A DNA stretch of 64,000 nucleotides, from the NCBI RefSeq assembly GCF_021917145.1, contig NC_061066.1, positions 3,095,891 through 3,159,890 on the forward strand. The letters are read 5' to 3'. Below the pieces are notes generated by a model. That model did not search any database, was not told the DNA's origin, and worked only from the letters and a program-made list of their open reading frames with translations. A program made the position numbers and the translations under genes. Shown piece after piece: positions 1 through 8,410 of this stretch. How positions within the stretch are numbered: the stretch's first letter is position 1; the number at the start of each line of letters is the position of its first letter. Origin of the DNA: Hypomesus transpacificus. Lineage: Eukaryota > Chordata > Actinopteri > Osmeriformes > Osmeridae.

Positions 1-740
1 TGTTAAGATAATGCTGTGTATTTATTGCTACTGCTGTACCTATAAAATATTAATATTTCAGGTGGACATACATTGTGTATTAATTTAATTTATCATTCAT
101 TTTCAGTGTGTGTGCGCATGAACGTGTGTGCATAATTAAGTATGTTTGTCAACAAGCTAAAGACAAGCCTGTGGTCGAAAGGCCCAAAAGCTACGCTTCC
201 TGATATCCCTGCTCGCCTCTCCTGAAGACATCTCCCTCAACCTGAACTTGAGGAGCAAGGAACTAAATACAACATGACCAATGTGCCCTCTTTACTGAAC
301 CATCCATAGTTGGACACAACTAAGGGCATGGAAAACAACGTTAACAGGGCGATTTATTCAAGACCAGGAACTATCATGCTCTGACATTGACGATTAGTAA
401 GTTTGTTACAAATGCTCCTATCCTTGTTCCCTGCTTGGTTAAAGGCACACAAAAAATTTGAACAAAAACAAGTTGATTACAATAAACTCAAATGACCTTT
501 ATTTTGGAAACAAAACACAAAAAAATGACAATTATACCCAAAGTCAAAGTTAAAACAGAGTGAAAGTTAAAAGTATAACAATGGTTCAAACAGTTCTAGT
601 ATTTGAATGAATGAATTTAGATGCACACATAATAATTTAAAATATATTGTGTGACTATGCATTAAGTTATATGAGCAGTATGTAATATATAATGATTCTT
701 AATTATATTAAAGGGAAAATGTAGATCACATCATCCTGGG
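1..740. other. AT-rich intergenic DNA, no gene seen
   Basis: No reading frame with recognisable protein similarity is present on either strand. The stretch lies downstream of the minus-strand lectin gene and probably holds its 3' UTR and polyadenylation region. The exact end cannot be placed, because the last coding exon of that gene is itself uncertain. Confidence 0.5.
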
Positions 741-747
741 TTAGTGG

Positions 748-3700
748 TTAATGAGATCCTTCAGTCCAGACTGAGATGTAGAGAGCCCTCTAGTGGTTTA
801 AATCTGTAAGTACATTAAATAACAGATTAAAATAGATCAGCACTCTGTGATAGGACAACACAAAAAACAGCATTATCAGTCTGTTTGTACTATGGTCTTT
901 AACATACCTTGACAGATGAAAGGGAGTTCCTCCTGACAGGAAGCACCCAGCCACTTTAAAGTGGATTCCTCATCATCATCCCAGATCATCTTACCACAGT
1001 AGAGGGTAGGAGTGTTGAGGGGGAAGCATTGGTGCCACTGGGTAAAGTTCACCTCCTCACCACTGACCCACACCCAGCGAGCGTTAGACTGGAAGATGAA
1101 CCTTTCCAGCCCTATCCACACTCCCCAAGGCAGATCCTCACTGTCCAGGAGCCAGGTCACATCCTCCTGCACAGTGGAGTTGGTTATATGGACGAGGGTG
1201 GAGTTCTGATCCTTACAGAACTCCAGGGCAGCAAGCCAGGTTTTGGGTGTTTTGTAGTAGTGCAGGTAGTCTGCATGGATATGACAAAAACAAGTTAGAC
1301 ACATCCACACACTTTGTCAAGAAGGAAATCAATTTCACTCTTACAGCCCTTCGAGAGTCACAAGGGAGGGTTGAATTACCAAGTGTTGGAATGGTAGGAT
1401 CTATAGTGGTGTCATTCACTGGATTTGCGTCTGCACCATGAGAGCAAGAATAAAGTTAATGTTGGCAAAATCAGGATTCACTTTAACTATAATTTTTAAG
1501 ACATTTTTCCAACGTAACATTTTGAATGTACCTCCAAAGCACAAAAAATGCTCTTGCTCTCGACAGTTTTTAGCTTGCCATGTTTTATCAGTGTTTATCA
1601 CAACAAAATGTTCTTCTCCTTCTTCATCCCATGCTTCAAATGGCTCCTCACTGGACCACTTCCACTTGTTGATGGTCAGATTATAATGAAGCCCAATCCA
1701 TGTCTGCTTTTGTGCCACTTCATCAAAGGCCTCCTGCTCTTCCTGGTTGAGGATACTGGCCAGAGTTTTATTTCGACTCTCACAGTCCAACTGAGCAGCC
1801 GACATATTTATACTACCTCCAGCAACGTTTTTATATGTTTTTGTTGTTGTTCCATTCACCTGATGAACTTTCAGCGAAAAATACATTTCATGAGCATCCA
1901 CATTTTAAAAGTAAGAAAACAGTAACTTATGTTTTAGATGAATAGTGAAGACACACCTACCATCCTGACACACATGGTTGTTTACATTTGTAGCATTACA
2001 GGGTGTTTCTTTCCATGTAGACTCAGAGGAATAGACACATTTATGTCCATTGGTGGTCGGGTGTCCATGTTGCCACTTGAGGTACATGTGGTTCTCCCCA
2101 GTTGACCACTTCCATGGTTTATTAGAGTCTTCTCTGTGGAGACCAATCCAGACATTTCTACTGGAGCTTCTCAGCTCTTGTTTGACAGCCTCCCAGTCTG
2201 CTGCTGTGTGGATGCTGGCCAGGTCTGTGTAGTGCTGCTGACAGTAGGCTTGTGCCTCAGTCCAGTTCTTCACCTCACTGACAAGACTGTACTTCTTGGC
2301 TGGGTGGATCACTGTTTGATAAATGAAACAATGATCAATATATTCTAGTTTATGTGGAGGGCAAATAGACACAGTTCACGGAAACACCAACAAATATGTT
2401 CAAATGTATATTTAGTATTTAGTACAAACGGTATAAGCATCTGTGTCTCACATGCCAGGTACTGTATACTTTAGGCTGGGAGACATCCTGTCCCTACTAA
2501 GACATTGTTGTACTGTGAACTATTGAAGAGATTCAACGTATATATGGTTAAATGGTATGTATGGTTAAATGTATATGTGGTATTCAAACAAATTGCATAA
2601 ATGGCTGTGATTGTGTCCCCAATGCCAGGTATAATGCACATTGTTGTACTGCATACTGTTGCAGAGATCTCTAACAGTGCCAACAGAAGAACTACTCATG
2701 AATTTCGTGTCTCTAACATGGATGTGTGTCCTCACCTATACCACTGCAGTTTCTCAAAGAATAGCCTGAGGTTCTGGTCTTAACATATTTTATATTAATT
2801 GGTGTTGTACCAGCAGGTGAGGCCTTCAGGTAGCACTTTCTGAGGATGGAAGTCAAAATATAGATAACATATTTATACAGTGATTATTCTTTCCATTCAT
2901 AAATAACAGGCAATAAACGTGTGTTGTTTGATAATCATTGAACTGCATAAACATCATTTGTTTGCTCATGACACAAAGTATAAAAACACATTACCTATTT
3001 TTATGAAATGTGAAGATTTGGCATCCCTGGTCTTTAGTGCATCTTTCTCTACACTTCAAAGCTGTTGCTGATTCTGAAAACTTGTGATTTGAAATGTCAT
3101 TTCCAGGGAAGGCTGTATTGTCCATGAGGTCCCTTGTACAACCTGTGTCAGATATTTATTACAAAATAAAACTTAAATGCATAACGTCATTTATTACTAA
3201 ATGAAACACACACACACACACCAATACACACATATTTGTGAGATGAAACATTGGATACTGAACATCTCCAGTGGGAGAAATACACAGTACAGCATGTGGA
3301 GTGTTGCTGTAATGTAAAGAACATCATAGTAGGTGCATGTGCACTCTGCAGTAATTGTAGCACCCCATCATCACTTACCTTTCACCACTGTCAGTTTGAA
3401 CTTCCCGTAGTAAAAAAATCTATTGCCAGTATAACAGCTGTATGTCCCACTGTGCTCTGGATGAATGTTGGAAATGACAAGGTCCATTGCACCAGTCATC
3501 CTGATTTGTTCAAGATCGTTTTGTATACAGGCATCACCATCACAGTGCTCACAAGATCGTATCCAGCATGTTTTTCTGCCCCACCGATATCTAGGGCAGC
3601 GAAGAGTCACAGTGGAGCCCTCCAGTACAGACGCCTCAGATATCTTCTGCCCACACACAGGTAGGAGGCTGACTGCTGTGGTTATAGTGACAGGTGAAAT

Positions 3701-3883
3701 AACATATATAGGGTCAGATGTTGTAGGTTTACACTACTAGACTAATGACATTAGGTTTAGAATGCATCTGAAAAAATGCTGGGATTTTGTGTGCCAGTTG
3801 TTTCCTGAACAGAGGACAAAGATGGAAGTATTTATAACTGCTTTCTTACCCAGCAACAGGAGCAGAAGGGTTGGCTGCAGCAT
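748..3883 (-). CDS. Secreted Ig - PAN/apple - triple C-type lectin domain protein (unrecognised architecture)
   Basis: Eight coding exons join in frame (about 551 aa): 3850-3883, 3379-3675, 2995-3142, 2736-2839, 1961-2311, 1532-1867, 908-1270 and a doubtful terminal exon 748-770. Exons 1-2 encode a leucine-rich signal peptide (MLQPTLLLLLL..) and a V-type Ig fold of the CD300/pIgR kind (TLRCPRYRW, extra cysteines in CWIRSCEHC, DSGTYSC-like HSGTYSCY). Exons 3-4 form one PAN/apple domain with an internal phase-2 intron (GCTRDL, RCTKDQGCQIFTF, KCYLKAS, GYSLRNCSG). Exons 5-7 are each a single-exon C-type lectin domain with phase-1 borders and WIGL motifs. None carries EPN or QPD, so Ca-dependent sugar binding is doubtful. 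CTLD2 lacks the usual third cysteine. No membrane segment is seen, so the product is probably secreted. A function in immune recognition is inference only. The domain calls are firm; the joining of all exons into one transcript and the last exon are less so. Confidence 0.72.
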
Positions 3884-4603
3884 TTCAACTAAATAAACCA
3901 AAGAAACAATCAACATAAATTGAAGTGAAGATTACTAAATATTAATCATCAAACATAACCATTAATAAAATGCATACTGTATATTTGTATAGCACACTTT
4001 AAGTTAATCATTTAATTAAAAAAATGAAAACATTTCATAATATACTCTTTTTGTCCAGACATTACAGATGATGTTATTCAAAGGTGTATGTGTGCATAAT
4101 CACTTTACAAGGAAATCTGCAGTGGGTAGAGATTCCCTGAGAACAGTGAAGGAACATAAAAAACTAGAAATGAAGACTAGATTAATTTGACCACCAAACT
4201 AATATCTACCCTCTGGCAACATACTTCAGCTACAATTGATGAGTAAACCAAAATTCAAAAATGATTTTACATAGCGTTTTTCATTTTGTGTTGCTTTCAT
4301 TAATACATTATTAACTTATTATAATTGCACATTCACATAGAAAATGTTAATTTCAAGTAGTGTTTATGTGGTATAAATGGTCTTATTCTATTTCCTACAG
4401 CATACAATGACAGGTTCATGACAATTGTAATTGTTCACTATCTGCTACACAGAAAAGGGTTTTGAAACGTGTACTGTATGTGTAAGTTCCAAATATAGTA
4501 TTTCCAGCAAAACAACCACCAAAAAAATAAAACTTTCATTTCTTCAAAATATTTTTTACACAACTAACTTGTATCTTCAGACGGCTCCCAGCAGTACACT
4601 TAC

Positions 4604-4758
4604 CTAGTGTGTGTCGTTCTCACCAAGTTGAGTGGGGTCAGTGGATGAGGCATCAGATAAAGCCACAGTCACAGAGCATCAGGTTATAGATCCACCTTTC
4701 TCTCCTCCCCTCTTTAGAAACATAGCTTCCATTTGTTCAGCTACATTTACATGCAAAT
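4604..4758 (-). promoter_or_regulatory. Putative promoter and non-coding first exon of the Ig-apple-lectin gene
   Basis: On the minus strand a good splice donor (CTAG|GTAAGT) ends a likely untranslated exon at 4604. It would join the acceptor just 5' of the start codon (tttatttag, near 3887), leaving an intron of roughly 0.7 kb. A TATA-like tctataac lies at about 4683-4690, and a perfect octamer (ATTTGCAT on the minus strand, 4751-4758) lies about 65 bp further upstream. That spacing resembles octamer/TATA promoters of immunoglobulin genes. The motifs are visible; promoter function is inferred. Confidence 0.4.
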
Positions 4759-4845
4759 ATGTTTTGAATTTGAAACGTATATTCAGTACAGTAAGACTGT
4801 TGTTTGTCTCTGGAGGTGGGAGTGCATGGACATGTACTGTTGCCC

Positions 4846-4960
4846 TGTTGGCTCACCAGCTAAGTGTGCGTGCCACACACAGGCTAAGGCCTTACCACAG
4901 AGGCCTGAGTTATAATTCAGCCCGGACCATTTCCTGAACGTCCTCTACACTGTCCCTGTT
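4846..4960 (+). mobile_element. Possible decayed tRNA-derived SINE fragment
   Basis: The segment has the layout of degraded fish tRNA-SINEs: a ggctcaccagctaagtg stretch like an A-box region, a degenerate B-box-like gttataattc, then a ccatttcctgaacgtcctct stretch resembling the body of such elements. No target-site duplication was identified, so this is a resemblance call only. Confidence 0.35.
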
Positions 4961-5206: not shown

Positions 5207-6462
5207 AATATGTACACTACAGTTGTAATGTATCCTGTTCTATAACCTCCATGCAGCTGCTCAGGTAGGCAGGTCCTGAAGGTGGTGAAAGAAATGTTTC
5301 CTGTCTCAGACTGGCTGCCGAAATATCCAATCAGAGAGTGGCTCCCCAGTGATGTCATCTCTGGTGTGAGCACTGGTCTGGTGTGCAGCTTGCAAGGTAC
5401 AGTATGTGTGCCGTGCCATTTCCTTCTGAAACATTCAGCTCTTTATGTAAATCTTGTCACCACAGCAGTGAGATTAATTTCCTGTGCGTGTGTGTTTTTC
5501 CGCACACCAGGTCTGGCGTATGCCATGTTAGTGTCTGTGGCCCCAGTGTACAGACTCTACTCTGCTTTCTTTCCCATCCTCACCTACTTCCTGCTGGGCA
5601 CGTCCAGGCACATCTCTGTGGGTAGGGACCTGACTGACATGTACAGTGACCAACAAGCAATGACTAATGACCAAGACCAGTTTTCTCTGCATTATTTGCA
5701 TAAATAATTTGCAACATGTTTTACACTGAACTCATTGAAGTATGTCAGTCATGCACAGGGTCTGACTGGCTGTTGGGAGAGTCGGAAGATTTCCCGAACG
5801 GCCGGTCAAACGGCTGGGGCATAATGCAAAAACAATAACAAATAATAATAATATGTTGTGGGCCGGTCTGCGTTTCAAAGTCCCGGGCTGTTTTTCAGTG
5901 CCAGACCTGGTCATGCATGTCATGTAACTGACCTGTGTCCACATGCAGGGCCCTTCCTTGTCACATGTCTGATGCTGGGAGAGGTAGTGTTGACCCTTAC
6001 CTCCGATGACCAATTCCTGTAAATAGCACCAGTGTGAATGGATGAAGGGCTGATGGGATAGAGGTAGACCTGGAGGCCATGGAGGCTTACAGGATCATGG
6101 TATCCTCCACCATGACTGTGCTGGTTGGCCCGTTCCAGGTACAGTAACTAGCAACTGTCCAGTAACAGACACATGCTGTTTGAGGGAATGTTCTGCTACG
6201 CTCCTGTTAAGGAGATGTATCTGGCTATACAGTAGGTGTGCCACCCTTGTCTCTGTGGTGATGGGATTGCTCCAGGTGGGCTTCCTGGTACGGTACCTGT
6301 CAGACCCCCTAGTGGGAGGGTTCACCACGGCGGAGCCGTGCATGTTCTCATCTCCCAGTTGAAGATCATCCTGTCCGTGCCCACCCACAACCACAGCGGC
6401 CTCTTCTCTGTGGTGTATGTGAGTGTCCAAGCTGCCCTGAGTATATCAGGCCAGGAATAAGG

Positions 6463-7614
6463 TACGGTGGCCCTGAAGTGCAAATGACACCCCCTAATAT
6501 GAGTACATCCCCCAAATGAAAATACTCCCCCCCAATACGAGTCAACTCCCCCCAAATCGGATGACTTGTTCACCTCCCCCCAATACAAAAACGCGCTCCC
6601 CCAAATGGAAAACGACATTACATTAACTCAAAAACACATTACATTAACTCTAAAAGGAAAGGGTAGGTACTACACTTTAGCGCTGATTGGATGCAGTAGG
6701 CTAACTGACAAGAAATAAGAAATTGATTGACAGAAGTACAAAATGCAATAGCCTGACAGAGTTACGTGCACCAGAACATTTATTTGGGTATTAAAGCATG
6801 TAGCATAGGCTATGTATGCAAAAGCATAAATTGCAATGTTAAACGTAAACATCGATAGCCAACTAGTCCAAGTAACTCTGTCATTATCATGAACTTAATC
6901 GTTTTGATTGGAAGGAAAGAGGAAACATTACAATTCAGAGTCATTACACTACTCTTTATTTTAATCAGGGTAATTCCTATGAAATAGTCTTAGATCTGCT
7001 GTTAACGTTTCACAATATGTAGCCTATGCGCACGCTAAAAACGCAGTTGAAGGAAGCAGGACTTTTCAGAAGAAAAAACTAATAGTCCACTACAGAAGAA
7101 TGAAATGCCACAATGACAGAGTAACGTGGACCAGGATAGTTGTTTGGCTATCGATTTTTACATTTAACTCGAAATACTTTTGCCTAAGTAGCCTACTATT
7201 TGCTACATTCTTCCATAGCCAAACACATGTTCTGGTGCACGTAACTCTGCCAGGCTATTGCATTTTGTACTTCTGTCGATCAATTTCTTATTTCTTGTTA
7301 GTTAGCCTACTGCATCCAATCAGCGCTAAAGTGTAGTACCTACCCTTTCCGTTCAGAGTTAATGTAATGTGTTTTTGAGTTAATGTAATGTCGTTTTCCA
7401 TTTGGGGAAGCGCATTTTTGTATTGGGGGGAGGTGAACAAGTCATCCGATTTGGGGGGAGTTGACTCTATTGGGGGGGAGCAGGTTTTTGTATTGGGGGG
7501 AGGTGAACAAGTCATCTGTTTTGGGTGGAGTTGACTCGTATTTGGGGGGGAGTATTTTCATTTGGGGGATGTACTCATATTAGGGGGTGTGGTTTGCACT
7601 TCAGGGCCACCGTA
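6463..7614. mobile_element. Fold-back DNA transposon (long inverted-repeat MITE-like element) inside the slc26a4 remnant
   Basis: The left end (tacggtggccctgaagtgca) is matched by its reverse complement at the right end (gcacttcagggccaccgta), with identical ATAAGG at 6457-6462 and 7615-7620 as a candidate 6-bp target duplication. A TA duplication with termini starting CGGTGG is the alternative. The arms stay complementary over several hundred bases: G/C-run blocks with tcatccgatttgggg, the TAGCGCTGATTGGATGCAGTAGGCTAACT block, and the inner ATCGATAGCCAA block near 6850 pairing with 7150. No transposase is encoded, so the element is non-autonomous. I could not assign a superfamily. Confidence 0.82.
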
Positions 7615-8410
7615 ATAAGGGGCTGAAACTGTATACTCTCACAACAAGGATTTCCTGAGCAATGATACATAAGAGGATATTGCTCTAGATTTGTTTTACT
7701 GTCAGTTTTTGTTGCATGTTTTCATACTTCATCATTTGTGCACAAGTGTTTCACGTTCATGTTTCTATGTGGGGGTTTTTCTACTCAGACGCTCACAGAT
7801 GTGTTTACCAACATCAGACAGAGCAACTTACCCGACCTGGCCACCAGATTGATTACTTTTGTTGTAGTGATGATTGTAAAGGAGGTCAACACCAAATCCC
7901 AGCAGAAGATTCCCGTCCCCATTCCTATTGAAGTGATTGTGGTAGGCACAATCGACTGAATAGCTCAGTCGATTGTTTACTCTTCTGGGATGATATTCAT
8001 CTATGTTTAAGGTTCTGCCAAATGCAGAATATCCAAACATTACTTACTTCTTACTTACAGACACGTGCATTTCATGTGAACTGCAATTCACCTTGGTGCT
8101 CTGTCCCGTTCTCTACACCCCTGTAACCCCTTCAGACCGTGGTTGCCACGGGGATCTCCTACGCCACCAAACTGGAGTCCCGCTATGGTGCTAGCATTGT
8201 GCACAGCATCCCCAGGGGGTGAGAGCACTTCCTGTGGCTGTTCCTGCTTCCTGTCCCCTCAGGGGAGGATGTTCTGGATATTTTATAGACTGCCTTGTAT
8301 TGTCATTGTGGTTTAGTTATACAGTGGGGTCTGTAGGACGCCCTGTTCTGTTAACCTCAGAACAATAATGGTGCATGTCCACTACAGCGGTGCGGAGCGG
8401 CGGCTTCCAA

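Follow-up and report, generated by a model that had tools for sequence, protein, structure and literature searches.

A predicted secreted fish protein with immunoglobulin-like, apple and three C-type lectin-like domains, encoded by two diverged gene copies

Among vertebrate proteins, the lecticans (aggrecan, versican, brevican and neurocan) carry an N-terminal immunoglobulin (Ig) domain and a C-terminal C-type lectin-like domain (CTLD), and members of the mannose receptor family possess 8-10 CTLDs together with FN2 and ricin-type domains and a membrane anchor. In its account of group F1, a survey of Fugu CTLD proteins describes soluble proteins with two or three CTLDs that lack mammalian orthologues (PMC514892). 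A passage on teleosts in another source states that these fish have no kallikrein protease but do have protease-less mucus lectins built from four apple domains (PMC3835742). In snails, the CREP subclass of the VIgL family is described, in the section concerned, as plasma proteins that combine an Ig fold with a C-terminal C-type lectin domain and that were recovered through their binding to parasite proteins (PMC5433772).

Here we describe a gene located in a 64,000-nucleotide stretch of the Hypomesus transpacificus genome (contig NC_061066.1, positions 3,095,891 to 3,159,890 of the forward strand), hereafter called the window, whose predicted product joins one Ig-like domain, one apple domain and three CTLDs. 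A preliminary description, made from the letters of the window alone, had stated that no protein with this domain order was known to have been described. The statement is supported as far as the open-access literature searched reaches, and no further: among the matches listed, which consist mostly of titles and the first part of abstracts, there was no fish protein that combines an apple domain with a CTLD and none with the order Ig-apple-CTLD-CTLD-CTLD. In the text of the Fugu survey, the words ‘apple’ and ‘immunoglobulin’ and the whole word ‘PAN’ do not occur, and the sole ‘Ig domain’ belongs to a versican (PMC514892). Elsewhere, one passage mentions CTLDs with PAN in nematodes (PMC5297725), and a figure legend in a section on rhamnose-binding lectins names a PAN module (PMC3269628). 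Orthologues may exist under automatic names in annotated fish proteomes.

Gene structure and domain composition

Splicing of the window sequence yields, on the minus strand from 3883 to 790, nine coding exons that encode one predicted protein of 565 residues (Table 1). Its layout runs from a signal peptide through an Ig-like domain, an apple domain divided between two exons, CTLD1, CTLD2 and a 17-residue linker to CTLD3 and the stop. All eight introns have GT...AG borders and measure 93-424 bp; seven lie in phase 1, and the remaining one, within the apple domain, lies in phase 2. The model has a single signal exon, after which all exons begin in phase 1 or 2, and a single terminal stop, in frame. 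The preliminary description had already placed all introns between domains in phase 1 and a single intron within the apple domain in phase 2, and splicing confirms these phases. It had counted seven exons in a span of 748..3883; the start at 3883 agrees, whereas the stop codon ends at 790 rather than 748, and the addition of a 51-nt linker exon and a 14-nt terminal exon brings the count to nine.

Table 1. Features of the gene in the window (positions count from the first letter of the window)
Feature	Positions	Strand	Remarks
Exon 1: translation start, signal peptide MLQPTLLLLLL...	3850..3883	-	Donor phase 1; from splicing and hydropathy
Exon 2: last part of signal peptide; one Ig-like domain	3379..3675	-	I-set-like in the paralog; four extra Cys between the core pair
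Exon 3: apple (PAN_1) domain, first part	2995..3142	-	Donor phase 2
Exon 4: apple domain, second part	2736..2839	-	Donor phase 1
Exon 5: C-type lectin-like domain 1 (CTLD1)	1961..2311	-	Lectin_C; model pLDDT 87; CD23 and LOX-1 folds
Exon 6: C-type lectin-like domain 2 (CTLD2)	1532..1867	-	Lacks one conserved long-loop disulfide Cys
Exon 7: linker containing Thr/Asn/Pro	1380..1430	-	51 nt, phase 1-1
Exon 8: C-type lectin-like domain 3 (CTLD3)	908..1270	-	Most conserved domain between the two copies
Exon 9: final residues DLNH and stop	790..803	-	14 nt; paralog counterpart L020:7740-7753
Candidate poly(A) signal AATAAA, 3' of the stop	498..503	-	Counterpart at L020:8054

Pfam recognizes three Lectin_C stretches in the predicted protein (4.2e-40) and a PAN_1 domain (7.5e-9; 35.8 bits against a cut-off of 21.4), and an NCBIfam scan returned only a polycystin match far under its cut-off. 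Hydropathy peaks at residue 1, in the signal peptide, and no hydrophobic or membrane segment was found beyond it. Because the signal peptide is the sole strongly hydrophobic stretch, the protein is predicted to be secreted; it contains 11 NxS/T sequons. Both the single predicted secreted product and the order of its domains, as originally put forward, are supported by the spliced model, the signal peptide, the lack of a membrane segment and the Pfam assignments, and most strongly by an intact second copy on contig C5 that has the same order.

The Ig-like domain had been likened to the V domains of CD300 and pIgR, an assignment that did not survive analysis. V-set scores are 17.7 bits in the window copy and 16.0 bits in the C5 copy against a cut-off of 26. 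The core Ig cysteines are 54 residues apart in a domain that carries four extra cysteines between them in both copies, whereas V-set cores show a spacing of about 65-75 residues. The best match among PDB sequences is an Ig domain of obscurin. On these three grounds, taken together, the CD300/pIgR-like assignment is rejected. No Ig family exceeds its Pfam cut-off in the window copy, where Ig_2 (1.2e-5) reaches 25.9 bits, slightly under the cut-off of 27, and I-set reaches 15.2 bits; in the C5 copy I-set scores 26.5 bits and passes its cut-off of 23.7. A structure model of moderate confidence (pLDDT 71.8, from a two-sequence alignment) was used for a fold search, in which the best 50 of 1949 rows mix FGFR, SIRP, TCR and antibody domains without separating V from I types, and include neither CD300 nor pIgR. 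Judged by its sequence, the domain looks I-set-like.

CTLD1 is modelled as an ordinary CTLD, with CD23 and LOX-1 as its best PDB folds. By PDB sequence, the CTLD part is closest to the mannose receptor family, whose members LY75, PLA2R and MRC2 are its top matches; type II antifreeze protein and ovocleidin-17 also appear among the matches. The FN2 domain, ricin-type domain and membrane anchor of the mannose receptor family were not found in the window protein. The canonical motifs of Ca-dependent sugar binding are EPN or QPD, and WND. Neither copy contains EPN, QPD, EPD, QPN or WND, and WDD is present in CTLD3 of both. Because the canonical motifs are absent, ‘lectin’ here denotes a fold and not a demonstrated activity, and the domains may bind proteins or may engage sugars through non-canonical contacts. 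In CTLD2 of the window copy (1532-1867), one of the two conserved cysteines that form the long-loop disulfide is missing, so that the other would be unpaired; the C5 copy retains the missing residue. The loss could reflect relaxed constraint.

A second copy of the gene and relatives of its modules

Scans covered 437 Mb of genome sequence in 376 contigs, and the Lectin_C scan scored the best 150 of 283 candidates. PAN_1 gives 11 matches in the whole genome, nine of them in one cluster on contig C4, one in the window gene and one at C5:4775336, where three Lectin_C matches are also found. The C5 paralog (L020:4655-7753) is a complete gene with the exons, order, phases and stop of the window gene, and its PAN_1 domain scores 38.1 bits against the cut-off of 21.4. 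Within scans that scored the best candidates (150 of 283 for Lectin_C), the Ig-apple-CTLDx3 architecture was therefore found twice in the genome. Given this second copy on a different contig, it is very unlikely that the exons line up by chance.

Searches with the individual modules gave distinct pictures. An Ig query has seven genomic matches, namely the window gene and the C5 copy (100 and 66% identity) and five others at 28-38%; the nearest of these other Ig exons, on contigs C10 and C26, sit within arrays of Ig exons that look obscurin-like, a name prompted by the obscurin match in the PDB. An apple query has four matches, all within the two copies. A query with the three CTLDs has 58 matches, which comprise the six CTLD exons of both copies and 52 others at 29-50% identity.

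DNA similarity to the C5 locus covers 336-4887 of the window. The flanks differ: the window gene lies beside a gene of the sulfate permease family, whereas the C5 copy lies beside one of the TCP1 chaperonin family. A segment of 316 bp at L020:9008-9323 nevertheless matches window positions 6169-6462 at 86%, and the window side of this match lies, by eye, inside the neighbouring SLC26-like sulfate-permease-family gene. A 55-bp match of 100% identity links the C5 locus to window positions 7614-7668. At C5 the SLC26-like match is on the opposite side of the gene copy compared with the window. This permuted order could mean that the copy moved from contig C7 to contig C5, perhaps via a circular intermediate, or could stem from dispersed repeats. 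In the last 400 bases of L020, the minus strand holds a frame, encountered as a chance tblastn row, that we take to resemble a Tc1/mariner-type transposase. The C5 copy also contains a further linker-like sequence (L020:6975-7029), which resembles, by eye, the linker exon at 7107-7157 and has no AG at the matching upstream place; it is perhaps a dead duplicate of that exon.

The apple domain finds its best PDB matches in the apples of plasma kallikrein (KLKB1) and FXI (E 3e-21 for the whole chain). With a PAN_1 score above the cut-off, KLKB1 and FXI as nearest relatives and exon phases of 1-2-1, the domain is, by sequence, of the kallikrein/FXI type. The nine PAN_1 matches on C4 belong to four-apple genes, which by their layout make up two groups of four and one additional first-part exon, and identity between these apples and the window apple does not exceed 38% for exon a and 40% for exon b. 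Exon phases on C4 were judged by eye from the splice sites. First-part apple exons there begin in phase 1, with a phase-2 donor visible in 4 of 9; the second-part acceptors that are visible fit phase 2, and the ends with a visible donor are in phase 1, as in the window apple. This sharing of phases, wherever they are readable, supports exon shuffling, the route for which uniform phase-1 borders had been invoked at the outset. Within C4:9424701-9434700 the four-apple genes stand in tandem, with first-part apple exons of very similar sequence at 9432910 and 9434442. Four short patterns, applied to unspliced frames, revealed no trypsin catalytic motif in C4 9416001-9434700, and the C4 genes thus fit the protease-less four-apple mucus lectins reported in a passage on teleosts (PMC3835742).

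Distribution of divergence between the copies

Approximately 257 coding changes separate the copies, and none has produced a stop codon; in an unconstrained sequence, about 12.9 of them would have done so (P about 2e-6). Six exons differ in length between the copies, in each case by a multiple of three, and both genes have kept intact splice sites. Neither copy contains a stop or a frameshift, and a pseudogene was rejected on these grounds.

Rates were estimated for these two sequences only, by the method of Nei and Gojobori, with bootstrapping of dN-dS for the whole gene and five domains. For the whole gene, dN/dS is 0.94. Values for its parts are 0.50 (CTLD3), 0.69 (CTLD2), 0.79 (Ig), 1.20 (CTLD1) and 1.21 (apple), and the 17-codon linker has a value of 4.29 that rests on one synonymous change. 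None of the bootstrap intervals, whether for the whole gene or for a single domain, excludes zero. CTLD3 is conserved between the window gene and the C5 copy.

Amino acid changes are concentrated along the protein. In windows of 20 codons, the observed maximum and variance of nonsynonymous changes were matched by none of 5000 codon shuffles, and for synonymous changes the maximum was matched by 394 and the variance by 38 of 5000. Nonsynonymous peaks fall in Ig loops (residues 39-48 and 93-105) and in the long loop regions, at 264-300 in CTLD1 and 383-414 in CTLD2. The long loop regions of CTLDs are the ligand-binding places of the fold. Loop borders were chosen after viewing the alignment, and the shuffle test is independent of them. 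Pooled over the loops of Ig (including residues 50-73), CTLD1 and CTLD2, 84.7 changes in 267.6 nonsynonymous sites give a rate of 0.316. Introns 1, 2, 3, 5, 7 and 8 show 100 changes in 742 aligned sites, or 0.135 (introns 4 and 6 align poorly and were excluded), and the excess in the loops is significant (Fisher P 3e-10). The loop rate is also higher than the rate over the gene's synonymous sites as a whole (P 4e-6). Outside the loops, the nonsynonymous rate is 0.110, which is not significantly under the intron rate (P 0.10).

Loops hold an excess of amino acid differences in Ig (P 4e-6), CTLD1 (2e-5) and CTLD2 (0.001), and no such excess is seen in CTLD3 (0.40). When loops and the rest are compared by their ratios of nonsynonymous to synonymous differences (Nd/Sd), P is 0.02 for Ig, 0.30 for CTLD1, 0.16 for CTLD2, 0.68 for CTLD3 and 0.028 for the pooled set, so that only Ig is significant singly. 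Synonymous divergence is 0.239 in the loops versus 0.142 elsewhere, and in Ig residues 50-73 it is greater than nonsynonymous divergence. Because synonymous divergence is raised in the loops, part of the excess may derive from uneven mutation or local gene conversion.

Competing explanations and comparison with known proteins

Given these data, the exons might still belong to two or three adjacent genes that have been wrongly joined. AATAAA words do occur inside the window gene, at 3195 and 3160 in intron 2 and at 2123 and 1772 in coding exons. However, the introns of 93-424 bp, the one signal exon, the one in-frame terminal stop and the phase-1 or phase-2 start of all later exons favour, indirectly but strongly, a single predicted transcript, and the C5 locus keeps the same exon set, order and phase. 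That copy has no AATAAA between Ig and CTLD1; one ATTAAA is found within the intron of its apple domain, at L020:5527, and its CTLD2 exon holds two AATAAA words. We regard a false joining as highly improbable. A weightier objection is that the divergence arose mostly by drift combined with uneven mutation, or by gene conversion from other lectin genes, in one or two copies that are weakly constrained or starting to decay. The overall dN/dS near one, the raised and unevenly spread synonymous divergence of the loops, the poor alignment of introns 4 and 6 and the cysteine lost from CTLD2 of the window copy would all accord with such a history. The reading frames argue otherwise, because stops are absent where about 13 would be expected, length differences preserve the frame and splicing signals are intact in both copies; moreover, nonsynonymous divergence in the loops exceeds the rate of the alignable introns more than twofold and also surpasses the synonymous rate of the gene. 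On balance, we consider this history unlikely.

The protein might also be secreted and yet serve no immune purpose, for example as a structural component of matrix, egg or mucus or as an ice- or mineral-binding protein in which the CTLDs are scaffolds without sugar binding. Such a role would suit the missing sugar-binding motifs, and some CTLDs are indeed antifreeze or mineral-binding proteins, as the matches to type II antifreeze protein and ovocleidin-17 recall. Divergence focused on loops is more typical of changing partners, and we judge a non-immune role to be rather improbable. Our favoured reading of the sequence data, to which we give evenly balanced credence, is that a single functional gene encodes a secreted five-domain humoral recognition protein of new architecture, which was duplicated and whose loops then diverged.

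If this favoured reading is correct, the product would be a secreted, soluble and probably N-glycosylated protein with the order signal peptide, Ig, apple, CTLD1, CTLD2, linker and CTLD3. Contacts with variable ligands, probably microbial or parasite-borne, would be made through the loops of the Ig domain and the long loops of the first two CTLDs, and positive selection rather than local hypermutation would have driven the divergence of these loops, as might suit a rapidly evolving recognition protein. The apple domain might bind proteins or glycans, as in teleost apple lectins, and may carry a glycan-binding function, and the conserved CTLD3 could serve an unvarying function, for example in attachment to a partner in the host or in self-association. 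Such a gene could have originated by exon shuffling that brought together a phase-1 Ig exon, a kallikrein-type pair of apple exons and fish-type soluble CTLD exons. A later duplication would have placed a copy at another locus, after which both genes kept open reading frames and diverged.

Compared with known systems, the predicted protein shares with lecticans an N-terminal Ig domain and a C-terminal CTLD within a vertebrate secreted protein, but it is small and has an apple domain instead of a Link module and three CTLDs. A lectican identity was ruled out, since Pfam scans of both copies gave no Link match at E values up to 1. With Fugu group F1 it shares solubility and three CTLDs, as judged from three Lectin_C stretches, a signal-like N terminus and the lack of a further hydrophobic segment. 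As described in the account of that group, F1 proteins consist of CTLDs only (PMC514892), whereas here Ig and apple domains precede them. By this analogy, F1-type soluble CTLDs are the likely source type of the CTLD exons, and the protein may be viewed, from its sequence, as a soluble fish multi-CTLD protein to which two modules, Ig and apple, were added. The teleost four-apple skin-mucus lectins and other KLKB1 relatives are alike in apple type and, where read in the C4 genes, in exon phases. These lectins have four tandem apples and no other domain, whereas here one apple is combined with Ig and CTLDs.

The VIgL/CREP proteins, as the section on them presents these, share the layout of an N-terminal Ig fold, a C-terminal CTLD and secretion, but they form a mollusc family and the likeness is one of layout only (PMC5433772). 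Convergence rather than kinship seems more likely to explain it. By analogy, one could go further and view the fish gene as an equivalent, in bony fish, of those snail immune proteins that combine Ig and lectin domains, that is, a newly shuffled humoral receptor in which the Ig loops and two lectin loops are under positive selection between duplicated loci while CTLD3 is held constant; we offer this only as a speculative and doubtful extension. If expressed as predicted, the gene would represent a clean case of vertebrate exon shuffling, in which three unrelated modules of compatible phase, one with its kin in a four-apple lectin family of the same genome, have yielded a new secreted protein that was then duplicated, with divergence at the loops likely to make contacts. 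The gene would also provide a vertebrate Ig-plus-lectin humoral protein that shares the layout logic of molluscan immune lectins.
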